Shown: positions 29,267 to 45,117 of the stretch, in pieces
Layout of the letters: the number at the start of each line of letters is the position of its first letter
Numbering within the stretch: the stretch's first letter is position 1
NCBI RefSeq assembly: GCF_041154485.1
Contig: NZ_AP028669.1
Location: 1,674,001-1,738,000, forward strand
DNA from: Variovorax sp. V93
Lineage (GTDB): Bacteria > Pseudomonadota > Gammaproteobacteria > Burkholderiales > Burkholderiaceae_C
Length of the DNA stretch: 64,000 nt
Reading direction: 5' to 3'
Notes under the pieces: generated by a model
What the model was told of the DNA's origin: nothing
Seen by the model: only the letters and a program-made list of their open reading frames with translations
Databases searched by the model: none
Translations under genes and position numbers: made by a program

Positions 29267-29311
29267 TGGTGGAGAGGAGGAGGATCGAACTCCCGACCTC
29301 CGCATTGCGAA
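29267..29311. repeat. Left attachment site (45-bp copy of tRNA-Ala 3' end)
   Basis: These 45 bases are identical to 45042-45086, i.e. the CCA end through the anticodon arm of the tRNA-Ala gene at the other end of the island. The match stops sharply at 29312. The fragment is too short to be a tRNA. It is the distal direct repeat generated by tyrosine-recombinase integration, and the integrase gene starts 91 bases to its right. Confidence 0.93.
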
Positions 29312-29402
29312 TGCAAAAACATCTCAAGCATTCATAGGCGATTCGGCCGAAGAATCGAATATTTGCCACAATACTGCCACACTCAGCTAGAAAAGCAGCT
29401 CG

Positions 29403-30557
29403 ATGGCAACCTTCCGCAAGCGCGGTCCTTACCAATGGGAAGCGCAGATTCGACGCCGCGGCTACCCGGCGCAAAGCAAGACGTTTGAAACCAAGGCCGA
29501 GGCAGAGGCCTGGGCCAACATGATCGAGTCCGAGATGGCGCGCGGCGTGTGGGTGAGCCGTGGCGAAGCGGAGGCAACGACGCTTCATGAGGCGTTGACC
29601 CGGTATGAAACCGAAATCGTGCCGGCGAAGAAGGGCGCGGCGCAAGAAGAGTCGGTACTACGGATCTGCAAGGCGACTGACCTGGCCAAACGACCGCTGG
29701 CCACGATCCGCAGCGCGGATGTGGCGAAGCTCCGCGACGAATGGCTAGCAGATTGCAAGCCTGCGACCGTGCTACGCAGGCTGGCGGTCTTGTCGCACGT
29801 GTTCAGCATCGCTCGCAAGGAGTGGGGCATGGAAAGCCTCTCGAACCCTGTTGAGCTTGTGCGCAAGCCGCAGCCGAACAACGCGCGCACTCGGCGTGTG
29901 ATTGACGACGTGTCGGCTGAAGACGGCGATGACTCGGACCGTGGCGCACTGGAAGGCGAGCTTGATCGGCTGGTGGCGGCCAGCGGCTCGGCGCTGCTGC
30001 CATCCATCATTTGGCTGGCCGTTGAGACCGCGATGCGCCGAGGAGAGATCATCGCATTGCGCTGGGAGCATGTGGACTTGAAACGTCGGGTCGCTCATCT
30101 GCCGGCGACGAAGAACGGTACTGCCCGCGATGTGCCTCTATCCACCCGAGCCGTGGAAGTGCTTCAGGCATTGAAGGATGCCCGTGATGCCCTCGAAAAG
30201 GGCGATGACTGCGATGAGAGAGCTGGCTCGGCCGAGAAGACTGATGGAGCCGACGAAGAGGTTGAAACTTCTCGGGTGTTCGGAATTCGCAGCGATGCTG
30301 TCACCAGGGCCTTCGTGCGCGCGGTAGCTCGCGCACGAAAGCTCTACGTCAAGGAGTGCAAGAACGCGCGGAAGCATCCGGACGAAAGGCTCCTCGTCGA
30401 CCTACGATTCCATGATTTGCGGCACGAAGCCACTTCTCGCCTCGCCTCCGTTTTTCCGTTGCATGAGCTGACGAAAATTACCGGCCACAAGGATCCGCGC
30501 ATGTTGATGCGGTACTACCACCCACGTGCCGAAGATCTGGCCAAACGGCTGGCGTGA
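29403..30557 (+). CDS. int: Site-specific tyrosine recombinase (integrase)
   Basis: This 384-residue phage-type integrase has an N-terminal arm-binding domain (MATFRKRGPYQWEAQIRRRG), a SAM-like core-binding domain (about 60-150), and a catalytic domain. The catalytic residues are visible as R212 (TAMRRGE), K237, H337-x2-R340 (HDLRHEA), H362 (GHKD) and Y371 (RYYHP). Two polar inserts (about 160-190 and 262-290) lengthen the catalytic domain, the second rich in Asp, Glu and Ala. It directs integration at the tRNA-Ala repeat. It is transcribed inward from the left att site. Confidence 0.95.
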   Translation: MATFRKRGPYQWEAQIRRRGYPAQSKTFETKAEAEAWANMIESEMARGVWVSRGEAEATTLHEALTRYETEIVPAKKGAAQEESVLRICKATDLAKRPLATIRSADVAKLRDEWLADCKPATVLRRLAVLSHVFSIARKEWGMESLSNPVELVRKPQPNNARTRRVIDDVSAEDGDDSDRGALEGELDRLVAASGSALLPSIIWLAVETAMRRGEIIALRWEHVDLKRRVAHLPATKNGTARDVPLSTRAVEVLQALKDARDALEKGDDCDERAGSAEKTDGADEEVETSRVFGIRSDAVTRAFVRAVARARKLYVKECKNARKHPDERLLVDLRFHDLRHEATSRLASVFPLHELTKITGHKDPRMLMRYYHPRAEDLAKRLA

Positions 30558-30647
30558 AGAGGGGGTGACTCAAACGCTGCGCCGCAGGATTGTTGGCGGT
30601 CCAGAACCCCGACCGGCTTCCCTTGAGGGTGCATGCGTGTTAGGCTT

Positions 30648-30664
30648 GATTTTGTCACAAAATC
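30648..30664. promoter_or_regulatory. Perfect 17-bp palindrome abutting the UmuD-like gene start
   Basis: GATTTTGT-C-ACAAAATC is a perfect 8-1-8 inverted repeat whose last base touches the ATG at 30665. It takes the place of a ribosome site, so either translation is leaderless or the palindrome works in the mRNA. It does not match the LexA consensus. An autoregulatory or repressor operator is the simplest reading. Confidence 0.55.
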
Positions 30665-31246
30665 ATGAGAGCACAGTCATCACCAAAGCCTCGGCACGGC
30701 GGGACCCGCCAGGGTGCTGGGCGCAAGGCTGCCTACGGAGAGCCCACCAAGACGGTTCGAGTGCCACAGAGCTATGTTCCTATAGTCGCTCAGTATCTAG
30801 ACGCGCTGAAGCGCTCGAACGCGGACGAACGCATGCGCCCGGTTGCAGCCCTACGACCGCCTACTGTGGTGCCTGTGCTCGGGCGCCGCGTCCGCGCCGG
30901 TAAGCCCACATCGGGCGACGACTATCAAGAAGAGGCCGTGGACCTCGGGCGGCACCTGGTACGTGATTCCAGCAGTACTTTTGTCATGAAGGTCGATGGC
31001 TGGTCCATGCGCGACGCCGGCATTGCTGATGGCGATGAGTTGATCATCGATTGCGGCTTGACTCCGGAGGATGGACGCATCGTCGTGGCTGAAATTGATG
31101 GCGAGCTCACCGTCAAACGCTTGAGGCGAACAACCACTGGCTGGCTGCTTCAAGCGAGCAACCCTGATTTTGCCGATGTGCAGATCGCAGAGAAGAACGA
31201 TCTGCACATTTGGGGCGTCGTGACCCGCTTGCTTCGTGCGGTGTAG
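30665..31246 (+). CDS. UmuD-like S24 peptidase with N-terminal extension
   Basis: This is a 193-residue protein. Residues 75-193 match UmuD: the self-cleavage site A78-G79 in RAGKPTSGDDY, the catalytic serine S114 (GWSMRDAGI) and lysine K151 (LTVKRLRR). The spacings, 36 and 37 residues, are the same as in UmuD. The first 60 residues are an extra domain with GGTRQGAGRK and PTKTVRVP, a basic motif found in small plasmid/phage DNA-binding proteins. No umuC follows. It could modulate SOS mutagenesis or act as a damage-triggered switch for the island; function inferred. Confidence 0.88.
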   Translation: MRAQSSPKPRHGGTRQGAGRKAAYGEPTKTVRVPQSYVPIVAQYLDALKRSNADERMRPVAALRPPTVVPVLGRRVRAGKPTSGDDYQEEAVDLGRHLVRDSSSTFVMKVDGWSMRDAGIADGDELIIDCGLTPEDGRIVVAEIDGELTVKRLRRTTTGWLLQASNPDFADVQIAEKNDLHIWGVVTRLLRAV

Positions 31247-31285
31247 AGACGCCTGCACAAATAATTGAAGAGTTAGGAGAATCTC

Positions 31286-32032
31286 ATGTCCCAATCCAGC
31301 CGAATCGAATGGACCGAGGCAACTTGGAATCCGACCGTGGGTTGCACGAAAATTTCGCCAGGCTGCAAGAACTGCTACGCGGAGTCGATGGCCAAGCGCC
31401 TTAAGGCGATGGGCACACCCGGCTATGAGAACGGATTCAAGCTGACGATTCTTCCGGATCGCCTGTCGGAGCCGCTAATGCGGAAGAAGCCGACGGTGTA
31501 CTTCGTGAACTCGATGTCAGACCTTTTCCACAAAGGGGTGGATGAAAGTTACATCGCGCAGGTCTTCGACGTGATCCGGCAGTGCCCGCAGCACACCTTC
31601 CAGGTTCTGACCAAGCGCGCTGATCGCATGGCTTCTTTCTTTCGAAGCCATGAGGTTCCGACCAACGCCTGGATGGGCGTTTCCGTCGAAGACAAAAAGT
31701 ATGGTGTCCCTCGCATCGAGGGCCTGCGCCAGGTCGATGCTCGTATCCGTTTTCTATCGGTTGAACCGCTGCTCGAAAATGTTGGTGATCTTGATCTGAC
31801 GGACATTCATTGGGTGATCGTTGGCGGTGAGTCTGGACCGAAGGCCCGTCCAATGAAGCTGGAATGGGTTGAGAATATCCGTCAGCAATGTGAGGACCAG
31901 GGAGTGCAATTCTTCTTCAAGCAATGGGGCGGTTGGGGGGCCGACGGCAAACGTCGGTCCAAGAAGGCCAACGGGCGTTTGCTTGCAGGCAGGACTTGGG
32001 ACGACATGCCGGCACTGTCCGCCCACATCTGA
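31286..32032 (+). CDS. DUF5131 (Gp37/Gp68) family three-Cys-motif protein
   Basis: This 248-residue protein has the N-terminal pattern WNPTVGCTKISPGCKNCYAE, in which C20, C27 and C30 (C-x6-C-x2-C) form the three-cysteine motif that could hold a metal or Fe-S cluster. Further family segments are FVNSMSDLFH, QVLTKRADRM, WMGVSVED and VGGESGPKARPM. The family is found in phages and islands next to TcmP genes; activity is not established. A TcmP gene follows after 8 bases. AGGAG lies 7 bases before the ATG. Confidence 0.88.
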   Translation: MSQSSRIEWTEATWNPTVGCTKISPGCKNCYAESMAKRLKAMGTPGYENGFKLTILPDRLSEPLMRKKPTVYFVNSMSDLFHKGVDESYIAQVFDVIRQCPQHTFQVLTKRADRMASFFRSHEVPTNAWMGVSVEDKKYGVPRIEGLRQVDARIRFLSVEPLLENVGDLDLTDIHWVIVGGESGPKARPMKLEWVENIRQQCEDQGVQFFFKQWGGWGADGKRRSKKANGRLLAGRTWDDMPALSAHI

Positions 32033-32040
32033 AGGAACGC

Positions 32041-33312
32041 ATGACGCTGAAACAGTACAACTGGAAAGACGGCCCCGATCTCATTCAGCAGCACAGCGTC
32101 GCAAAGCACCGTATCCTTGAAGCGTACCTTGCCGCTTACTTCAGAACACTGGTCAGCTCACCCAACCAGGAGGTTCTAAAGTTGACCCTCGTGGATGGAT
32201 TTGCCGGTGGTGGCCTGTACGTCCACAACGACACGCGAGAGCTGGTCAAAGGTTCGCCGTTCATCTTCCTGGACGCGACGCGTGAGGCCGAATACCTGAT
32301 CAACAAGGACCGTCGCAAGCCGGTTCAGTTTCAGGTCGACTACTTTTTCACCGAGGCAGACCGTCACGCCCATCTTCATCTCGACAAGATCCTGCGCGAG
32401 AAGGGCTATGGCGACCGCATCGGCAATGGCATCTACCTCCAGCACGCCAAGTTCCAGGACCAAGCCGACTCAATCATCGAATTTGTCAAGAAGAAGAGCC
32501 CGAAGAACGGCCGCTCCATCTTCGCGCTCGACCAATATGGCTACAGGGAGGTGCCCGCGCATCTCATGCGCAAGATTTTCGACGCGCTGCCAAGCGCTGA
32601 AGTCATCCTGACCTTCGGTGTTGACTCGTTTGTCAACTTCGCAAATGACGGCGATCGGGGGAAGGATTTGCTCGATGGGCTTGGCATCCCCGACATCTTC
32701 GGCGGCCGATCGATTGAAGAAATCAAGTCGTCCGAGCGCGATTGGCGCCTCTTCATCCAGAGCACCCTGTACCGCAAGCTGGTCGAGAACTGTGGTGCCC
32801 GGCACTTCACGCCATTCTTCATCCGCAACCGCAGTGGTCACGGCGATTACTGGTTGATTCACCTGTCGCAACACCACCGTGCACGGGACGTCATGACCGA
32901 AGTCCATTGGGCGAATAACAACTACTTCATCCATTACGGCGGCGCTGGCCTCGACATGTTTCAGATGGTCGGCTACGACCCGGTTCATGATGCGGCCCAC
33001 CGGGGACAGTCCGCGCTGGGATTTGAGTTCGATGATGTTGCGCGGCACGCGAGCATCGCAGCGCTCAACGAGCACATCCCCCGTAGGGTCTACTCCGACG
33101 ACACGGGCATCAGCTTCGGAGAGCTGTTCGCGACTACGTGCAACAGTTCACCGGCTTCAGCGCAAATCTATCGAGAGTCGATCGGTAAGCTGCTTGACGA
33201 GCGAGTCATCGAAGTCGTCAGTGCCGATGGTTTGAGGCGCCGTTCGGCCGCACAGATCAAGGCAACCGATCAGATCATGCCGCCCCGGCAGCGTCCGCTG
33301 CTCTTGAACTAA
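32041..33312 (+). CDS. tcmP: Three-Cys-motif partner protein TcmP
   Basis: This 423-residue protein belongs to the TcmP family, named for its partnership with the three-Cys proteins. Residues 50-58 read LVDGFAGGG, resembling motif I of S-adenosylmethionine-dependent methyltransferases, and FALDQYGY lies where a motif IV would fall. A helical C-terminal domain follows. The ATG is 8 bases after the DUF5131 stop, so the two are cotranslated. It converges on a second TcmP gene, leaving 44 bases between stops. Enzymatic activity is inferred. Confidence 0.85.
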   Translation: MTLKQYNWKDGPDLIQQHSVAKHRILEAYLAAYFRTLVSSPNQEVLKLTLVDGFAGGGLYVHNDTRELVKGSPFIFLDATREAEYLINKDRRKPVQFQVDYFFTEADRHAHLHLDKILREKGYGDRIGNGIYLQHAKFQDQADSIIEFVKKKSPKNGRSIFALDQYGYREVPAHLMRKIFDALPSAEVILTFGVDSFVNFANDGDRGKDLLDGLGIPDIFGGRSIEEIKSSERDWRLFIQSTLYRKLVENCGARHFTPFFIRNRSGHGDYWLIHLSQHHRARDVMTEVHWANNNYFIHYGGAGLDMFQMVGYDPVHDAAHRGQSALGFEFDDVARHASIAALNEHIPRRVYSDDTGISFGELFATTCNSSPASAQIYRESIGKLLDERVIEVVSADGLRRRSAAQIKATDQIMPPRQRPLLLN

Positions 33313-33356
33313 CCACGACAATAGCGAAAGAACATCGCCCGCAATTGCCTAGATCA

Positions 33357-34535
33357 CTAGATCAGGCAAATGCGCTCGGCCTTCTCGAAATGCAAGGGCC
33401 GCGTGCGCCGACGGGATGCATTGGCATCCTGGTTTTGCACTTTCCCCGCCTTGACCAGCCTCATCAGTGAGGCCTGCAATTCCCCGGGCAGCCAGTTTGT
33501 TGACTCCAAGATGTCTGCAAACTCCGGTACCCCTATCTTGCGCGCTCCGTTGGCCAGGTAAGCCAGCCAATACTGGTCGACTTCATCGGGGCTGCTGCGC
33601 GCATCGCCGGCTTCCTCCACCGCTTGTTCCGTGAACATGTCGACGACGCCCGAATTCTTCGCGCGAACGTCGAGCTGCGTCACGGTGCGAACCTGAGCTT
33701 GGACCAGATCGACCTTCTCCGAGATGTCCATGAACTCCGTGATCCCGGTTGGGTGGCTGGTCAGGTAGACAAGGTGGTACTTCGTGCGCCTTTGTAGCGG
33801 GTCCAGCACGCTCACATATGCTGTGCGGGCCCGATAGCCTCGCGAGCTAGCTGGCACACGTGCCTTCAGACCTTCTCGATACGCGTTGACCAGGGTCTTC
33901 TCGCGCTCGCTCGACGAGAGTCCCGAAAGGGCTACAGATTTGCCCAGCAGCCGGACCATCGCCTCCTGCCATTCCTTCATCGACACAGTGCGGTTAACGA
34001 AGTTGTACGCAAAGTTGATCAGAAACTCCGAGCGCGGACGCTTGAGGAGGGGCGACAAGGTTTCGACGCCAACGTCCTTCCAGCCCTTGGGATCGATGAA
34101 GAAGAAGGTAAATGCATCGGTCCCGCACCAGGCGAGAATTTCGGCGCGAAGGTCGACGAAGTCTCCGTGCCGACACTCGTGAGCGATTGTTGGATGTACA
34201 CCGCTTTTGAGAAACTCCGACAAACGTTTGTATGGTGCGGCCGACTTCTCGATGTAGAGAGCCCGCATTCGCACATCGACATTCAAGCTGGCGAGCTTTG
34301 CTTTGCAAGCCTCCAGTGTCCGTAAGGAAAGAGCGATGGAAGTGCCATCGAGCTTTTCGTCTGGCGAGCCCCAGGGGCCTGCAAAGCAGTCTACAAAACA
34401 GATTTCGGCCCGGCCGTTAGTCTTGGCCGCCATGCCGATGATCAGGACTAGCTTTTCGAGGTAGCTCTCCAGGAGAGCATGCTTGACAAGTGCCTGTTCT
34501 CGGCCTTCATAGATATCCGGGACGATCGCTGTCAT
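33357..34535 (-). CDS. tcmP: Three-Cys-motif partner protein TcmP (second, divergent copy)
   Basis: This 392-residue TcmP-family protein differs strongly from its convergent neighbour but keeps the layout: FVDCFAGPWGS (47-57) as motif I-like loop and FFFIDPKGW as motif IV-like segment. The C-terminal 100 residues look like a winged-helix part (ELQASLMRLVKAGKVQNQ). It is the last gene of a three-gene minus-strand operon with SLOG and PRTase proteins, 80 bases after the SLOG gene. No three-Cys partner lies beside it in this operon. Possibly a nucleic-acid or nucleotide methylase; unproven. Confidence 0.82.
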   Translation of the reverse strand: MTAIVPDIYEGREQALVKHALLESYLEKLVLIIGMAAKTNGRAEICFVDCFAGPWGSPDEKLDGTSIALSLRTLEACKAKLASLNVDVRMRALYIEKSAAPYKRLSEFLKSGVHPTIAHECRHGDFVDLRAEILAWCGTDAFTFFFIDPKGWKDVGVETLSPLLKRPRSEFLINFAYNFVNRTVSMKEWQEAMVRLLGKSVALSGLSSSEREKTLVNAYREGLKARVPASSRGYRARTAYVSVLDPLQRRTKYHLVYLTSHPTGITEFMDISEKVDLVQAQVRTVTQLDVRAKNSGVVDMFTEQAVEEAGDARSSPDEVDQYWLAYLANGARKIGVPEFADILESTNWLPGELQASLMRLVKAGKVQNQDANASRRRTRPLHFEKAERICLI

Positions 34536-34615
34536 GCTTGACGGTTCGTCATTGCTATTCCTTGCACCTTTGCAAGCAGGCGAGTCCGTGCGCTATATGA
34601 CGGCTCGGCATACCG

Positions 34616-35173
34616 TCAGGCGAACAGCGGTACGTCGTGCTTGAGTGCCGCGATCCGATTGGACAGGCCAATTTTTTCTTCGGCCTTGAGCTTTGCGTGC
34701 TCGGACATAAAGGTCAGCAACTCCTCGAACTGCTGGACCGTCCCTACGTTCTTGAAGGCCTTCGCCTTGTTCACGAAGATGACGGATTTCTTCCGGCGAG
34801 CCAGCAACTCGATGACGTTGCTGAGCGTGCCGGTACTCTTCGTGTCCCAAATCATGAGGCCGAAGTCGGCGACTTCGGCCATGCATAGGTCTTTGGCGGT
34901 GAAGAAGGCTCTCGAACCTTGGGCGTGCTTGGTCTGAACGACATGGACGGGCCAGTCGCCGACATTGTTTCGAGGCTTGGTGCCGCTGCAGTAAACGGTT
35001 GTTTTCGTCGTGCCTGCGTTGACAAGATGCCACTGAATGGAGGTGTCTGCGCCATCGGCATCGCCCACCACAATGTTGAAATCGGACGCAACGATGTTGT
35101 CGATGCGCTCCTTCACCTTGGCGTCAAGGTTTTTGATGTTCATCGAACCAGCGATGAAAACGGTCGTCGTCAT
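34616..35173 (-). CDS. SLOG-domain nucleotide-binding protein
   Basis: This 185-residue Rossmann-like protein has GDADGAD (37-43), the glycine-rich loop of SLOG/DUF2493 (YspA) proteins. A second motif region is DLCMAEVADFGLMIWD with STGT (about 96-116), as in nucleoside deoxyribosyltransferase-related folds. SLOG proteins bind or cleave nucleotide-derived ligands and appear in several immune systems as sensors. The start is two bases from the PRTase stop, so the two are cotranslated. No membrane or effector domain is visible; TcmP would be the only effector candidate. Confidence 0.78.
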   Translation of the reverse strand: MTTTVFIAGSMNIKNLDAKVKERIDNIVASDFNIVVGDADGADTSIQWHLVNAGTTKTTVYCSGTKPRNNVGDWPVHVVQTKHAQGSRAFFTAKDLCMAEVADFGLMIWDTKSTGTLSNVIELLARRKKSVIFVNKAKAFKNVGTVQQFEELLTFMSEHAKLKAEEKIGLSNRIAALKHDVPLFA

Positions 35174-35175
35174 TT

Positions 35176-35754
35176 CTAGCTCCAGGTGAGCGCCGCCATG
35201 TAGATGCGGCGGACTTTCGGGTACGTCCGCAGCACTTTACACGCTGCCTCCATGGAGGCCCCCGTCTGATATAGATCGTCGATGACCAGAACGTTCCACG
35301 GGCCGTCGCCCTCTAGGTCGTCGCGGACGCTGAAGCCGTCGCCGATGGCCGCCAGTTTCGAAGCCTTGTCGGGTAAGTCTTTCAACGGCTGCCCGTTGGG
35401 GGCCTTGTTTAGGAGTTCGTCGAACACGGGCGTTCCGACCAACTTTCCGAGTGCCTGAGCGACCTCGGCGACGGGTTGCCGATCGCGTTTCTTCGATGCC
35501 GGCATGGGGACGATGAAGCCGACGCTGGCGAGCTTTGGGTAGATGTTGTCGGCGAGGGCCTGGGCGAGCGCCGGCGCCTGATCCCATGCAAATCTGTACT
35601 TCAGCTGGAAAGTCGCTTCTCCAGCCTCGGTCCGCACGTTGTCGAACTGAGGGCGTCCATTGAGGTCGCCGAGGTATGTGCTGTGGTCCATGTGCTTGTC
35701 CAGCACCCAGCCAGCGTCCCAAGGGCCGTGGATCTCTCTGAGATTTACCTTCAC
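35176..35754 (-). CDS. ComF-like phosphoribosyltransferase
   Basis: This 192-residue protein from a GTG has the PRPP-binding loop VLVIDDLYQTGAS (residues 155-167, acidic pair D159-D160) and an upstream VPMPASKKR typical of ComF/amidophosphoribosyltransferase-like enzymes. It would move a base on or off PRPP. The start is chosen for its strong GAGGAGG site; the frame extends further upstream without one. An upstream small frame's TGA overlaps this GTG. It is the first gene of the PRTase-SLOG-TcmP operon. Confidence 0.82.
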   Translation of the reverse strand: MKVNLREIHGPWDAGWVLDKHMDHSTYLGDLNGRPQFDNVRTEAGEATFQLKYRFAWDQAPALAQALADNIYPKLASVGFIVPMPASKKRDRQPVAEVAQALGKLVGTPVFDELLNKAPNGQPLKDLPDKASKLAAIGDGFSVRDDLEGDGPWNVLVIDDLYQTGASMEAACKVLRTYPKVRRIYMAALTWS

Positions 35755-36257: not shown

Positions 36258-36647
36258 ATGCATGCCCCTCTTTCGCCACTTCCCACTCCGTGGCCACCAC
36301 CTATCCCGGCATCGGCGCTTCCACGTAGGGGCTGCCCCGCTTCAGCGCAAAGCACATTGGCTGCAGCCATCGGGAACCAGATCAGGGTACTCCGACGTGC
36401 GGCCGACATGACCACACAGCGCTCGCTCGCCCTTCGGGCAGGAATGTCGGTGTCGATGCTTTCGAGGCTTGAGCGCGGCCTCGTCACCCCTTCGTTGAAA
36501 ACGCTTGAGCAGATCGCGCACGCTCTGCGCCAGCCGGTTCCGATCCTCGTGGACGTTCAACTGCCACTGCCATTCACGGCACCGGAGCCGGCAGCGCGCG
36601 AATCGCCAGAAATGGCGATGAGCTGCCAAGCCGGCCAATTTGGGTAG
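36258..36647 (+). CDS. XRE-family helix-turn-helix regulator
   Basis: This 129-residue protein carries a Cro/C1-type domain in its middle (about residues 37-100): RSLALRAGMSVSMLSRLERG, then TPSLKTLEQIAHAL. The N-terminal 30 residues are Pro/Ala-rich and may not be translated; a start inside that region is possible. It lies divergent from the PRTase-SLOG-TcmP operon and is followed by a cluster of GGCCAA repeats. It is a plausible regulator of that operon, by position. Confidence 0.75.
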   Translation: MHAPLSPLPTPWPPPIPASALPRRGCPASAQSTLAAAIGNQIRVLRRAADMTTQRSLALRAGMSVSMLSRLERGLVTPSLKTLEQIAHALRQPVPILVDVQLPLPFTAPEPAARESPEMAMSCQAGQFG

Positions 36648-37061: not shown

Positions 37062-37109
37062 CCCGGCGGCCCACTCGGGCCTTCCGTTGCACCTCCAAGG
37101 CGCTCGGGG

Positions 37110-37126
37110 AATTTAGCGGCTAAATT
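37110..37126. promoter_or_regulatory. KorA-like palindromic operator
   Basis: AATTTAGC-G-GCTAAATT is a perfect 8-1-8 palindrome. Its TTTAGC/GCTAAA core recurs at 37738, 41015 and 41042 in this island. It resembles the GTTTAGCTAAAC site of the IncP plasmid repressor KorA, with one extra central base. It lies 133 bases upstream of the hypothetical gene at 37259. No korA gene is seen here. Confidence 0.6.
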
Positions 37127-37168
37127 TAGAAAGCCTCGTCGAGGAGCGATTCGCACGACATCGCTTCA

Positions 37169-37684: not shown

Positions 37685-38016
37685 TGATGACCTCGTCGCC
37701 GGGAGTTGTTCAGCGCACGAGCATGGGGGTCGCCCGAAATTTAGCGGCTAAATTCCGCCCCCAGCAGCAACGTCGTGATGGCGGTCATCTTTCCTTGGCC
37801 GTTTCCGACGATGCTGCTGGAGGGCCGGAGGAAGGCCGCAGAGCGATTTCCCGGCCTGCCGCACCCTTACACCGTCACTGAGGACCGCGGGCGCTGCCCT
37901 TGACCTGCTCCCTCCCACTCGCCTGGCAACCGGGCAAAGAAAACGCCTCGACGTGCGAGGCGGAAATGACCGACGACGACCCAGGGACGAGCCGCGCGTG
38001 GAACGCAGCCGATGGG
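37685..38016. other. 332-bp stretch without a confident gene
   Basis: Holds one KorA-like palindrome (37738-37754). An ATG at 37684 overlaps the previous stop and opens a 65-codon frame across the palindrome, but no ribosome site or recognisable sequence supports it. GC-rich inverted segments occur around 37820-37860. Nothing else seen. Confidence 0.5.
37738..37754. promoter_or_regulatory. KorA-like palindromic operator
   Basis: AATTTAGC-G-GCTAAATT again, identical to the copy at 37110. Perfect 8-1-8. No gene starts just downstream on the plus strand, and the nearest minus-strand start lies far to the right, so its target is unclear. Confidence 0.55.
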
Positions 38017-38244
38017 CTAGTACTCCAAGCGTTGCCGAACGCCTGAGACGGCTTCTCGAAAGTCCGCGTGTGTCGCTCGTCCGGTGTTGGCCTGGTAGTA
38101 GATGACCGTGAACATATTCACGGCGGCTTCCGCAAGCGCCTCGAGCTGGTGCGCCTCGTCATGATCGAGCCAGTCAACGCCCGCGAGCAGTTCGGCCGCG
38201 TGATGAACAGCCTGAGCTGCTTGAGTAAGATTCAAAGTTGCCAT
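38017..38244 (-). CDS. Small hypothetical protein downstream of trbL
   Basis: This 75-residue helical, acidic protein (MATLNLTQAAQAVHH start) has no cysteines or membrane segment. AAAGGATG lies about 10 bases before the ATG at 38244; a longer form would begin at 38292. It is the next minus-strand gene after trbL (70 bases) and may be part of the same transcript. Family unknown. Confidence 0.6.
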   Translation of the reverse strand: MATLNLTQAAQAVHHAAELLAGVDWLDHDEAHQLEALAEAAVNMFTVIYYQANTGRATHADFREAVSGVRQRLEY

Positions 38245-38313
38245 GATGCACATCCTTTGCATGTGTTGATTGGAAGTGCCGGCCGGCCCCACGCCGGCCG
38301 GTGCGCCTGTCGC

Positions 38314-40014
38314 CTAGGTTTGCCTCCGGTTGGCGAATGCGGAAATCTCGGCGGCTGCGTCGACGGACTTTTCGCTATCGTTGAACCCGGAGAGGCTGTC
38401 GCCCGTGAAGGCTGGCGGCGTTCCGCCTGACGCCATTCCGGTGGCAATGAACGCTCGCGCCGCCTGGGCCTTGCCAGCGACAGTCTTCGTCTTGTTGATG
38501 TCGGCCTTGTCCTGCCGATCCGCGGCAGCGCTGCCAGGCGCGCGAATTTCGGCCGCGACCCGACCACCTGTTGTCTGCGAGGCTCGGTGGCTTGCAGCAT
38601 CCATGACGCTGCCGATCTTGCTTTTCGCAACAGCCGCGATCCCAGTGCCGAGGGCGCCAAGCACCGACCGGCCGCCCTCGTTGTCAGGTCCATCGCTGTC
38701 GCCTCCGGTCGCCGCTTCGTAGTCGCCATTCTTCGGCGGTGATGCTTGCCCGCCGCCGATCGGTGCGTTGTCGTTCGCGACCGTCTTCGAGCCCGGCTCG
38801 GACTGGCTGCCCGAATCCTCCTCAGGCGCGGTGTCGCCCTTCCAGCCCGCGTTTTGGCCGCCGAAGCTGCCCAGCCCGCCACCGCTGTCTCCCATCGCCG
38901 CAGCGAAGGGCGTCGAGGTGCTGGCACCGGCTGAGCCGCCGCCATCGCCGCCGGCCATGAAGTCCGGCATGCCGCCCACCCCCGTGTTGTTGCTGTTGGA
39001 GGTTCCGGCCTGGTCGAACGCCGCCTTGATGGCCGATCCCCAGCCGGCAGCGCTCGCGCCCGCGGAAGTCGCCACACTCATCGCTCCGGCCGCTGCCGCG
39101 CCGGCCATGGCCGCAGCCGCCATCAGTGTTCCTGTTCCGGCCCCGCCCATGCTGGCCGCGCCACCCACGCTCGCCCCAGTAATGATCCCCGCGATCAGCG
39201 GAGGAATCTTGTTTACGAGATAGAGCAGCAAGCCTGCCACGACCAGGATCACGGCCAAGTCCCTGAGCGTCGCATCGCCCATCTTGACGTAGTACTCATT
39301 GAGCACGGCTTGGCCGATCCCGACGAGCAGCGTCATACCCATCAGAGAGGCAGCGATCCCGAGCACGGTCTTGTAGTAGTTGATCGCCATGTCGGAGGTC
39401 CAGCGGGAACCGCCAAAGCCCAGGAAGAAGATGCCCGCGTAGGCCAATATCCAACCCGACACCAACAGCACGACCATGTTGATGGCAACAAGCGCGAGCA
39501 TTCCCAAGGTAAGAATGGCGATGACTGCGCCGATCGCGGTTTCAATCGGCGCCCACACGGACGAGTTGTCGATCACCTTCGAGAAGATCTTGAATCCGAT
39601 GTCTACGATCCCTGACGGTGTGAGCCCTGGGACGCCAGCGGCATCGCCGGCGAGCTGCTTGAGCGAATTCATGATTGCTGTTGCAATCGGCGAAGCGTTG
39701 CTCAGCAGGAAGAAGAAAAATCCTGTGAACATCACGTAGCGGATCAGCTCGGCGAATATCTCGCCAATGTCCGCCTTGCGCAGAGCCATCATGCCGAAGG
39801 TCCACACCATGCTGATGAGGGCCAGTGCCCAAAACAGCCGCGTGGCGGCGGCGCTTATGGAGCCACCCCACGTCGCAGCTTGAGCTTGGTAGCGGGCCGT
39901 CACGTTGTCCAGTACACCAGCGCTATCGATTGCGGCGTGTGCCGTCAGAGAAAAGAGCGCCGCCATCATCAGCAGCGCCAGCGCGATTGAGCGCGTACGA
40001 GTCAATATTTTCAT
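38314..40014 (-). CDS. trbL: TrbL/VirB6-type conjugative transfer membrane protein
   Basis: This 566-residue inner-membrane T4SS channel protein has an N-terminal signal (SLTAHA then AIDSAG), about five membrane helices (between residues 50 and 270), a Gly/Ala-rich stretch (GTLMAAAAMAGAAAAGAM) and a long polar C-terminal tail. This is the TrbL layout. The ATG at 40014 forms TGATG with the preceding stop and has AAGGTG upstream; GTG codons at 40017 and 40020 are alternatives. It lacks the other T4SS genes (trbB to trbI), so it cannot form a complete channel by itself. Confidence 0.9.
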   Translation of the reverse strand: MKILTRTRSIALALLMMAALFSLTAHAAIDSAGVLDNVTARYQAQAATWGGSISAAATRLFWALALISMVWTFGMMALRKADIGEIFAELIRYVMFTGFFFFLLSNASPIATAIMNSLKQLAGDAAGVPGLTPSGIVDIGFKIFSKVIDNSSVWAPIETAIGAVIAILTLGMLALVAINMVVLLVSGWILAYAGIFFLGFGGSRWTSDMAINYYKTVLGIAASLMGMTLLVGIGQAVLNEYYVKMGDATLRDLAVILVVAGLLLYLVNKIPPLIAGIITGASVGGAASMGGAGTGTLMAAAAMAGAAAAGAMSVATSAGASAAGWGSAIKAAFDQAGTSNSNNTGVGGMPDFMAGGDGGGSAGASTSTPFAAAMGDSGGGLGSFGGQNAGWKGDTAPEEDSGSQSEPGSKTVANDNAPIGGGQASPPKNGDYEAATGGDSDGPDNEGGRSVLGALGTGIAAVAKSKIGSVMDAASHRASQTTGGRVAAEIRAPGSAAADRQDKADINKTKTVAGKAQAARAFIATGMASGGTPPAFTGDSLSGFNDSEKSVDAAAEISAFANRRQT

Positions 40015-40256
40015 CACCACACCTTTTTCTCACTCGGGCTGTACGATCCCCGCCGCGCACACTTCGAGCCGAACTCCCGGCGCACAGCGTCCGTTACGGG
40101 CATGGCCTCGATCGCGGCTTTAGCACAGTTCGTGTCGTTGACATCTGGCATCACGTAAGGCGGCGGTGTTGGTACTTCCGTCTTGCCGCAGCCGGCAAGC
40201 GCAACAACCATCACAGCCGCGAGCGCCCACGCACAATTGATGCGAGCCGTCGTCAT
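40014..40256 (-). CDS. Entry-exclusion-type lipoprotein (TrbK/EexN position)
   Basis: This 80-residue lipoprotein has a signal peptide ending LAGC, followed by GKTEVPTPPPY and a short domain with two more cysteines. Its place between trbJ and trbL, overlapping both as TGATG, is that of TrbK (or Eex) in IncP/IncW plasmids, which blocks entry of a second related plasmid. Sequence similarity alone would not identify it; the call rests mainly on lipobox, size and order. Confidence 0.75.
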   Translation of the reverse strand: MTTARINCAWALAAVMVVALAGCGKTEVPTPPPYVMPDVNDTNCAKAAIEAMPVTDAVRREFGSKCARRGSYSPSEKKVW

Positions 40257-41077
40257 CACCAGACCTTCACCGGGCTGTCGCGGTACGTGCCACTGCGCGC
40301 GCGGGCACTGCCAGCTGCACGCATCGCCTCGTCATCAGCCTGCGCCTGCATCCGCGTCGTCGTCGCGTTCTGCTGAGCGATCAGCAAGCCACGGATTTGT
40401 AGGAGCTGATTGGCCTGCGAACTGGCGAGCTGGTTGGCGTAGCCCAGCGCCTGCATCTGGCCGTTCGCCCCTTGCGCGGCCGACTGCAAACGCTGCAACG
40501 TGCGCGCGTCCGTTTCCATCGCGTCTTGCTGCTTGTCCAGGCCCTTGAACAGCGCGTCGTTCGCCTTCTTTTGCGACTCCGACTGGTACTTCTGCTGGTT
40601 GGACAGCAGCATGGATCGCGTTGCATCGTCGCAGGAACCGCCGTTGAAGCACGGCGAGTTCTTGTAGTAGCTCACGTCCTGGAACTTGCCGAGGTAAGCA
40701 TCGATGCTGCCGAGCTGCTGCTTGTAGTAGCTCAGCGTGTCGATGGTGCTGCGCAACGAATTCATTGTTGCCTGTGCCTGGTCCCAAATCTGCGTCACCG
40801 GCGCGGCGGTGTTTTGCAGCATGTTCTGGTACTGCTGCATTTGCAGTTGGTACTGCTCGACTTGCTTGGCGTATTGCTCAACCTGCTTAGCAGTCTGAGC
40901 GACGGCCTCGATTGCCGACATGATGTTTTGCCCCAAGTTGGCCCCGTCGAACGTCGGGATGCCTGCTTGCGTCGGTGCCACGGCACCGACCGCCAAGGCG
41001 ATGACGAGGCCGGTTTTAGCCGCTAAATTTCTTAGCCGAGTTTTAGCGGCTAAATTCTTCTGCTGGATGGACTGCAT
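40256..41077 (-). CDS. trbJ: TrbJ/VirB5-type conjugative transfer protein
   Basis: This 273-residue periplasmic pilus-tip-type protein has an unusually long signal peptide (about 39 residues, cut after PTQA). It continues AGIPTFDGANLGQN, then a Gln-rich coiled coil (VEQYAKQVEQYQLQMQQYQN) and NTAAPVTQIWDQAQ, as in TrbJ. AAGGAG lies 6 bases before the ATG at 41077. The signal's N-region contains two NLAAK repeats, each encoded by a KorA-like palindrome. It is the first gene of a trbJ-trbK-trbL remnant. Confidence 0.88.
   Translation of the reverse strand: MQSIQQKNLAAKTRLRNLAAKTGLVIALAVGAVAPTQAGIPTFDGANLGQNIMSAIEAVAQTAKQVEQYAKQVEQYQLQMQQYQNMLQNTAAPVTQIWDQAQATMNSLRSTIDTLSYYKQQLGSIDAYLGKFQDVSYYKNSPCFNGGSCDDATRSMLLSNQQKYQSESQKKANDALFKGLDKQQDAMETDARTLQRLQSAAQGANGQMQALGYANQLASSQANQLLQIRGLLIAQQNATTTRMQAQADDEAMRAAGSARARSGTYRDSPVKVW
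41015..41054. promoter_or_regulatory. Pair of KorA-like palindromes inside trbJ
   Basis: TTTAGC-C-GCTAAA (41015-41027) and TTTAGC-G-GCTAAA (41042-41054) lie 27 bases apart within codons 8-21 of trbJ. Each is a perfect 6-1-6 palindrome and encodes Asn-Leu-Ala-Ala-Lys together with flanking bases. A repressor bound here would block elongation just after the start codon. Their spacing of 27 bases is also nine codons, so the reading frame is kept. Confidence 0.6.
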
Positions 41078-41160: not shown

Positions 41161-41529
41161 CTAAGAGAAGACCACGGTCTTCATGATTTCGGACAACTTG
41201 CCCTGGTTCTGATCGATCTTGGTCAGGGCCGCGAGGACAACGCGACGCTGCTCTTGGAGAGTGAATCCGGCGAGGCGCTTGTCATTGCTCAACCACATCT
41301 TGAGCAGGCCGCCGAGCCGTTCGAGGTCCCGATTGACTTTCACCAAGTCCCTCACGCGCTCGTAGTCGAGGGCGCACTTCACCTCGTAGCCCTGACCAAC
41401 CTTGCGCAAGAAGCCGGCGGTGCTGTTTCCGGTGGATCGAGCCAGCTCTTCGATCCTTCGCTTCTCGTCAGGAAAAACGCGCACGATGATTGGCGTATTG
41501 CCCTTTCGAGTGGACTTCCTCTCCGTCAT
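41161..41529 (-). CDS. traJ: Relaxosome accessory protein TraJ (MobC-like)
   Basis: This 122-residue basic protein matches RP4-type TraJ: RKGNTPIIVRVFPDEKRRIEEL, then STGNSTAGFLRKVGQGYEV, with a ribbon-helix-helix N-terminus. TraJ binds the inverted repeat at oriT and recruits the TraI relaxase. GAGGTG precedes the ATG. The gene is read away from the oriT at 41609-41661, the RP4 arrangement, but the traI gene that should follow is absent; trbJ comes next after 83 bases. Confidence 0.88.
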   Translation of the reverse strand: MTERKSTRKGNTPIIVRVFPDEKRRIEELARSTGNSTAGFLRKVGQGYEVKCALDYERVRDLVKVNRDLERLGGLLKMWLSNDKRLAGFTLQEQRRVVLAALTKIDQNQGKLSEIMKTVVFS

Positions 41530-43201: not shown

Positions 43202-43308
43202 GCGTTCGTGAAAGTACGTGCCCGGGCGTCCGTGAAAGTACGTGTCGATCCACAAGTCCGCGTCCGTGAAAGTACGATCCTATCCACACCCCGGATTCAC
43301 TATCCACA
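43202..43308. repeat. Iterons and DnaA-box-like sites (oriV)
   Basis: Three 19-base iterons, GCGTYCGTGAAAGTACG plus two bases, lie at 43202-43220, 43226-43244 and 43260-43278, all in the same direction. Two CTATCCACA sequences (43280-43288 and 43300-43308) match the DnaA box TTATCCACA at eight of nine positions. An AT-richer stretch lies at about 43100-43140. The repA stop follows at 43312. This is a typical theta-replication origin. Confidence 0.85.
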
Positions 43309-43311
43309 GGC

Positions 43312-44274
43312 TCAACAGGAGTGCGACGCGGCACCGCGCTTTGCCTTTTGTCGCTTGAGCGATAGCAGGATGTCGGCGCGCTGCGCTTTATGGCCCTTGT
43401 CCGCGCGGGCGTAGAAGGTCACGGCGTCGGCCTCGGCATCAAGGGCGAGCCGGTAGTCCGGCAAATCGTTCGCATCAGCGATGGCCTTCAGCGCTGAACG
43501 GAACTTGCGCACGGTATCGGTGCTGCCGCTCTTGGCGTGCAGAGTACTGACGGCGACCCTCCATCGGGGCTGGGCGCCGCAGTGCTTGCGAGCCATTTCG
43601 TAGATTCGCCGATCCAGAGGTTTGCGAAGACGAAAGTAGTCTCGGCTGAGCGTGAGGACACGCCGGCTTTGGATAGAGCGCCAAAGCCAGTCGGGCAACG
43701 TCACTTCGATTGCCACCATCTTGTTGTCGTGGTCACGTTCGATGATCCGCCATGCATCGATAAGGCCGAAGCCCGCTCGCTCGCGCTTGCTGGCGGTCTC
43801 GATGTTAGTTTCGACCACCGTTCCCTTAAGGCGTCGAAGCGCTTCGACCAGGCGCCTGTAGCCGACGCCGGCCGTGGGCCGGTTCGTTGTGACTAGGAAG
43901 TCATAGGCAGTGAAGCGAACCGTTCGGCTCACGTCTTCTCTCTCTCTGTTCAGCGCCTCAACGAGTTGGCTGATGCAGTAGATCCATAGATCCTTGTCAT
44001 GGATCGTCGCGCAGCCGTCCACGCCAGGCTTGATGGTGACGGTGAGGCCATTGCGCGCGTAGGAGCGCACGCGCCGGTCGCCGGCCTTGAGGGCAAACAA
44101 AGGGTGCTCCATGCTGGCAAGGTCGTCCTTCGGCGACGCATCCAAGATGTCTGCGACGAAGAAGTCTCGCTGCTGATGGCGAAGAGGGGCGAGGCGCTGG
44201 AGTTGCGGCGCGGGCTCTGCTTGCGTGCCGCAGGTGGGCGGTCCAGCAACCGCCTCCGTGATGACGGTGAGCAT
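43312..44274 (-). CDS. repA: Plasmid replication initiator RepA
   Basis: This 320-residue initiator is of the RPA family (plasmid replication initiator protein A). Segments fitting the family include HPLFALKAGDRRVRSYARNG, DLWIYCISQLVEALN, YDFLVTTNRPTAGVGYRRL and LSRDYFRLRKPLDRRIYEMARKH, which form two winged helices that bind iterons. The iterons lie immediately downstream of the gene. The start is 3 bases from the preceding HTH stop, with CGAGGG as ribosome site. It looks intact, so the island could in principle replicate when excised. Confidence 0.9.
   Translation of the reverse strand: MLTVITEAVAGPPTCGTQAEPAPQLQRLAPLRHQQRDFFVADILDASPKDDLASMEHPLFALKAGDRRVRSYARNGLTVTIKPGVDGCATIHDKDLWIYCISQLVEALNREREDVSRTVRFTAYDFLVTTNRPTAGVGYRRLVEALRRLKGTVVETNIETASKRERAGFGLIDAWRIIERDHDNKMVAIEVTLPDWLWRSIQSRRVLTLSRDYFRLRKPLDRRIYEMARKHCGAQPRWRVAVSTLHAKSGSTDTVRKFRSALKAIADANDLPDYRLALDAEADAVTFYARADKGHKAQRADILLSLKRQKAKRGAASHSC

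Positions 44275-45041: not shown

Positions 45042-45117
<76 letters not shown>

Follow-up and report, generated by a model that had tools for sequence, protein, structure and literature searches.

The described systems closest to the locus reported here are ShosTA and PsyrTA/RqlHI. A review (PMC12593503), citing Pu et al. 2025, presents ShosT as a phosphoribosyltransferase (PRTase) and pyrophosphatase that disturbs purine metabolism, ShosA as a DNA-binding protein, and T7 Gp0.7 as a trigger. Another account describes the protection of E. coli against T7 and lambda by a two-gene pair and names DprA homologs as the antitoxins of shosTA, 'syrTA', and rqlHI (PMC9122126), PsyrTA is listed elsewhere with a RecQ toxin (PMC8790059), and both PRTases and SLOG domains have been placed in conflict systems (PMC5512222, PMC7824862). 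Here, we analyzed a 64,000-nucleotide (nt) stretch of DNA from Variovorax sp. V93 (hereinafter the window, on whose scale all its coordinates are given), in which a predicted PRTase-SLOG pair adjoins genes for a DUF5131 protein and two proteins of the TcmP family, TcmP1 and TcmP2 (Table 1). The reading we favor, with a probability of about three in four, is that a single integrated and probably mobilizable element carries two independent, adjoining modules: a toxin-antitoxin (TA)-like PRTase-SLOG pair (module A) and a DUF5131-TcmP1-TcmP2 cassette (module B). The original prediction had instead grouped the PRTase, SLOG, and TcmP2 genes as a single nucleotide-centered defense system. The three tightly packed minus-strand open reading frames (ORFs) that it named are real, the intergenic gaps measuring 2 nt (PRTase-SLOG) and 80 nt (SLOG-TcmP2), but the border of the system was misplaced, and the convergent genes at 31286-33312 (DUF5131 and TcmP1) were absent from its account. 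A literature search recognized no paper on a ComF-SLOG TA pair and found no functional description of DUF5131/TcmP, which is weak evidence of absence as most subscription papers and preprints lay outside its coverage.

A TA-like PRTase-SLOG operon

The predicted ComF-like PRTase was borne out, albeit weakly, by the TIGR00201 model (E-value 1.5e-4; 21.8 bits against a cut-off of 233.55). Searches with the PADLOC models of defense systems recovered ShosT (1.5e-7) and PsyrT (9.3e-7), the latter match spanning positions 558-681 of the 689-position model and reaching 2.5e-17 in the relative L121; by sequence, weak matches to phosphoribosyltransferases (E-value 0.03-0.04) were also found in the PDB. 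An alignment of 33 members of the family displays a conserved stretch around D159-D160-L161 and T164-G165-A166-S167 (D160N in one sequence), which we take to be the phosphoribosyl pyrophosphate (PRPP) loop.

The partner encoded directly behind it had no match in Pfam, a single match in NCBIfam (E-value 0.034), nothing useful in the PDB by sequence, no match in a search of phage records, and none among the PADLOC models, ShosA and PsyrA included, at E-values up to 10. Its AlphaFold2 model (mean predicted local distance difference test score 93.9), however, has the SLOG fold seen in DprA and ShosA, and the original call of a SLOG protein holds on the strength of this predicted structure rather than of an hhalign comparison with DprA. 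A relative at locus L120, the sole one with a ShosA match, weakly recovers both ShosA (0.0026) and PsyrA (0.0053). In many relatives, an antitoxin-type helix-turn-helix (HTH) domain, belonging to one of two different types, is fused to the C-terminus of SLOG. Separately, a SLOG ORF of 432 residues (L074, 7998-9296) bears a C-terminal extension that is unlike these HTH types (weak match to DUF5677, 0.0044).

Co-occurrence of the two genes and biased loss of PRTase

Family profiles were built from 35 SLOG, 33 PRTase, and 36 TcmP2 sequences. When species genomes were scanned with the SLOG alignment, 127 relatives emerged; the 80 best loci, together with 20 from a viral scan, furnished 100 SLOG loci with flanks of up to 8 kb (less at contig ends); in 89 of these a PRTase profile match lies beside SLOG, and in none was there a match to the TcmP2 profile. 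A larger set of 115 loci comprised the 80 from genomes, the 20 from IMG/VR, five IMG/VR duplicates re-found via PRTase, and 10 from plasmids. The raw tally of this set was 92 loci with both genes full, 20 with SLOG full and PRTase partial or missing, two with a partial PRTase without SLOG, and one with both partial. Two loci were adjusted by hand: L059, mis-scored by a 1.5-kb distance rule, has both genes full, and L084, whose contig starts at SLOG, was set aside. The resulting counts are 93 loci with both genes full, 18 with a full SLOG and a broken or missing PRTase, and none with a full PRTase lacking SLOG; the remainder are three with a broken PRTase and a missing or partial SLOG, and one cut by a contig end. 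Three loci scored as PRTase-broken (L012, L045, and L087) might equally reflect a frameshift, sequencing error, or divergence.

As this set was mostly found through SLOG, PRTase-centered searches were added. SLOG is adjacent in 55 of the 57 plasmid records with a PRTase match (by-eye comparison of accession and position; two via L120 and L199), and the two plasmid PRTases without it (L118 and L198) are both broken. Across 298 genomes of the genus of Pseudomonas sp. DTU12.3 (source of L025), the PRTase is near-full in 15, SLOG in 21, and both in 14; seven genomes have a near-full SLOG with a truncated, fragmentary, or absent PRTase, one has the reverse, and two have a broken SLOG with no PRTase match. 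PRTase and SLOG belong together, and the 7:1 ratio of losses favors the PRTase as the putative costly partner. Two points weigh against this interpretation: the single reverse case, G952, is a near-full PRTase without SLOG, a diverged copy at 42% identity; and the ratio is small and drawn from genomes that are related to each other. A tree of 25 Pseudomonas loci (11 with orphan and 14 with paired SLOGs), of a quick kind and with a long-branch warning for L038, requires eight changes of this label, at least five of them forced by starred branches; therefore, PRTase losses have recurred. The SLOGs standing beside PRTase remnants or no PRTase are those of L020, L021, L024, L029, L030, L031, L033, L037, L039, L040, and L043, and the remnants vary between strains.

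The bias in loss bears on the possibility that SLOG is a sensor and activator, detecting phage DNA or a nucleotide and turning the PRTase on. The predicted DprA fold would suit such a role, as would the description of SLOG domains as sensors in Thoeris ThsA. However, SLOG being kept after loss of the PRTase more often than the reverse is unexpected for an activator, and the antitoxin-type HTH fusions likewise point away from it; we consider it unlikely, while noting that the two readings overlap since a paired antitoxin may also sense. The persistence of SLOG alone could further be accounted for if the genes were a housekeeping-like pair for nucleotide salvage or competence, with SLOG having a function of its own. 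Consistent with this are the ComF resemblance of the PRTase, the downstream sequence that most, though not all, of the 25 Pseudomonas loci share with L025, and a median SLOG dN/dS (ratio of nonsynonymous to synonymous divergence) of 0.042 in orphans (44 of 55 pairs used) versus 0.043 in paired loci (59 of 91), after exclusion of pairs whose dS was saturated or very small. Yet most of the SLOG divergence may predate the PRTase losses, because of which the value of 0.042 is no proof of selection after loss. The patchy spread of the PRTase (3 of 274 genomes of the class, its own included), the carriage of the pair on plasmids, IMG/VR contigs, and the island described here, and the HTH fusions make a housekeeping role very improbable.

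Under the TA interpretation, and by analogy with ShosT, the PRTase would be the toxin, disturbing PRPP/purine pools and hence DNA replication, and SLOG, made directly behind it, would restrain it and probably sense the state of DNA or nucleotides. The PRTase might then be freed by replicating phage, by damage to DNA, or when the element is lost, with abortive infection and/or addiction as the outcome. The nucleotide-centered role in the original prediction was a fair guess for the PRTase and SLOG, which most resemble phage-defense TA pairs, but not for a three-gene system.

Linkage of TcmP2 to DUF5131 and TcmP1

The assignment of the third minus-strand gene to TcmP was well founded (Table 1). 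Its relatives are sparse: among 399 genomes of the order 4 have one, as do 3 among 200 of the family (its own genome counted each time), and a second family contributed 2 among 64, one of which had already appeared in the first draw. We read eight other TcmP2 loci; seven come from six genomes, and the eighth is the top match among 18 plasmid records. Each lies next to DUF5131 and/or TcmP1 (DUF5131 in seven, and TcmP1 at a contig end in L106), and SLOG or PRTase is present in none. Of the 17 remaining plasmid TcmP records, five were inspected, and in every one the annotation places DUF5131 or Gp37/Gp68 next to TcmP. The stops of TcmP1 and TcmP2 in the window face each other 44 nt apart, and this convergent three-gene layout is also seen in L130, L131, and L132, of which L131 and L132 come from one genome and have broken frames; L117 has the order TcmP2-DUF5131-TcmP1 on one strand, with DUF5131 in two ORFs. 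This linkage makes TcmP2 most probably a member of the DUF5131 cassette. The trio is rejected as a unit because of the absence of TcmP2 from the 100 SLOG loci and the consistent company of DUF5131 and/or TcmP1, without PRTase or SLOG, in the eight TcmP2 loci: a single system, with a nucleotide signal produced or sensed by PRTase and SLOG and with TcmP as its methyltransferase-like effector, is the least probable of the readings considered. The trio was met nowhere else in the searched loci. In its favor are the tight spacing of the three genes on one strand and the presence of the nearest relatives of each gene (P0001, 95% identity; P0121 and P0242, 92%) on metagenome contigs outside this count, so that sister islands may hold the trio as well. 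A search of plasmid DNA with the region as query returned zero matches, and a promoter and terminator scan with folding of the SLOG-TcmP2 gap gave no clear signal.

The 36 aligned TcmP2 sequences share an invariant DCFAGPW motif, E96, and a DPxGW motif, which fit the motifs of class I methyltransferases; at this motif level TcmP2 may be a methyltransferase. The cysteine triplet of DUF5131 (Table 1) is presumably the three-Cys motif meant in the name of the TcmP family. Module B would then combine a three-Cys protein with two methyltransferase-like paralogs that probably modify or sense nucleic acid. The true start of TcmP1 is probably downstream of that listed, because its ORF overlaps DUF5131 by 109 nt and the TIGR04474 match begins only at residue 56. 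We do not claim a true DUF5131-TcmP2 fusion in L107, where DUF5131 runs on in two other frames, perhaps through a frameshift or sequencing error. A viral scan for TcmP yielded 55 stretches matching a pattern, none encoding a relative, and comparison of TcmP and DUF5131 with the PDB by sequence gave nothing useful. TcmP appears together with Hna in a list of genes affected by NolR (PMC12445080) and is tabulated among prophage genes (PMC12429752). Locus L117 lies on a P. aeruginosa plasmid (NZ_CP124633.1, 17794-34945) that resembles an integrative and conjugative element; there, the cassette follows genes for a DEAD/DEAH helicase and DUF6094. A second DUF5131 gene is encoded in the V93 genome outside the window (G000:C1:1382718-1383692, minus strand; 291.8 bits).

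The integrated element

Both modules are contained in an element of about 15.8 kb between two direct repeats, with the integrase gene starting about 90 nt past the left one. The S24 peptidase, a TrbA-like HTH, the ptaRNA1 toxin, TrbL, the NikA-like protein, and RPA are encoded on the same element, a gene content that suggests it is probably mobilizable; a second TA system, of the ptaRNA1 type, may ride on it. The XRE gene that the original prediction placed divergent to the operon is indeed a divergent HTH gene; it stands about 500 nt off, however, and resembles a transfer regulator. Window positions 30617-33508 are also present in a congener (G1270), as a copy (95.6%) beside related host DNA (82%) on a contig that breaks off within TcmP2; of about 90 contigs of this genome, 14 more were examined in whole or at their starts and had no match. 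Three copies of an iteron-like 29-nt direct repeat lie at one end of the RPA gene (43202-43288), and a 22-nt near-palindromic repeat, possibly a regulatory or transfer-linked site, occurs at 37106-37127, 37734-37755, and 41036-41057.

Table 1. Features of the integrated element in the window and the evidence for each.
Feature	Position	Strand	Evidence
PRTase, ComF-like phosphoribosyltransferase, predicted toxin (module A)	35176-35754	-	start codon GTG at 35754; TIGR00201 weak; ShosT/PsyrT matches
SLOG, DprA/LOG-fold, predicted antitoxin/sensor, 185 residues (module A)	34616-35173	-	2 nt behind PRTase; AlphaFold2 fold
TcmP2, methyltransferase-like TIGR04474 protein (module B)	33357-34535	-	TIGR04474 97.6 bits, cut-off 53; PDC-M30A 2.1e-13
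TcmP1, with GMT-like winged HTH domain (module B)	31924-33312	+	TIGR04474 227.3 bits; PF22560 5.4e-14; PDC-M30A 1e-22
DUF5131, phage Gp37/Gp68-type, Cys 20, 27, 30 (module B)	31286-32032	+	PF07505 5.1e-110; PDC-M30B 7.3e-115; PDC-M41B 1.2e-113
Left 48-bp direct repeat, probable att site	29267-29314		direct-repeat match
Tyrosine integrase	29403-30557	+	PF00589 3.1e-22
S24/UmuD-LexA-like peptidase	30665-31246	+	Pfam/NCBIfam
Divergent HTH regulator, TrbA-like, in neither module	36258-36647	+	best NCBIfam match TrbA, 42.8 bits, cut-off 96
ptaRNA1-type toxin ORF	38017-38250	-	PF12703 7.8e-30
TrbL/VirB6-like conjugation protein	38314-40020	-	PF04610 2.2e-34
NikA-like mobilization protein	41161-41529	-	PF21983 9.8e-18
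RPA replication initiator	43312-44274	-	PF10134 3.8e-92
Right 48-bp direct repeat (98%)	45042-45089		inside tRNA-Ala(CGC) 45042-45117 (-)

Implications and comparison with known systems

More tentatively, in a proposal that we think somewhat more apt to fail than to hold, the PRTase-SLOG pair might constitute a third, widespread branch of PRTase/DprA-fold TA systems, with a compact SLOG that stands in for full-length DprA and has acquired two different antitoxin-type HTH domains, and at the same time DUF5131-TcmP1-TcmP2 might be an undescribed three-protein cassette for nucleic-acid modification or defense. If the two-module reading is right, a false three-gene system would be replaced by two testable ones, the DUF5131-TcmP cassette and a compact pair that should act as ShosTA does. 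In some relatives of this pair the antitoxin has an HTH and may regulate itself. The recurrent PRTase losses next to intact SLOGs in Pseudomonas would offer natural material on whether antitoxins persist as anti-addiction genes.

Like ShosTA, module A joins a PRTase related to ShosT, with a conserved PRPP-loop-like stretch, to a partner predicted to have the SLOG fold of DprA and ShosA. Unlike ShosTA, this partner is a compact SLOG without a match to the 303-position ShosA model, and its relatives often have the C-terminal HTH. The resemblance to PsyrTA/RqlHI is confined to the PRTase domain aligning to the C-terminal region of PsyrT noted above: the RecQ helicase part is missing, as the PRTase ORF has 192-214 residues compared with 689 positions in the PsyrT model, and the SLOG of the window is without a PsyrA match. 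Module B resembles the PADLOC candidate systems PDC-M30 and PDC-M41, as DUF5131 matches both M30B and M41B and the two TcmPs match M30A; both component models of PDC-M30 are therefore matched, as judged by model matches rather than by the PADLOC locus rules. It differs from these in having two TcmP paralogs around one DUF5131, both of which are also present in L117, L130, L131, and L132. With respect to TcmP as defined by TIGR04474, both paralogs score above the cut-off, and the three-Cys DUF5131 partner is encoded nearby.
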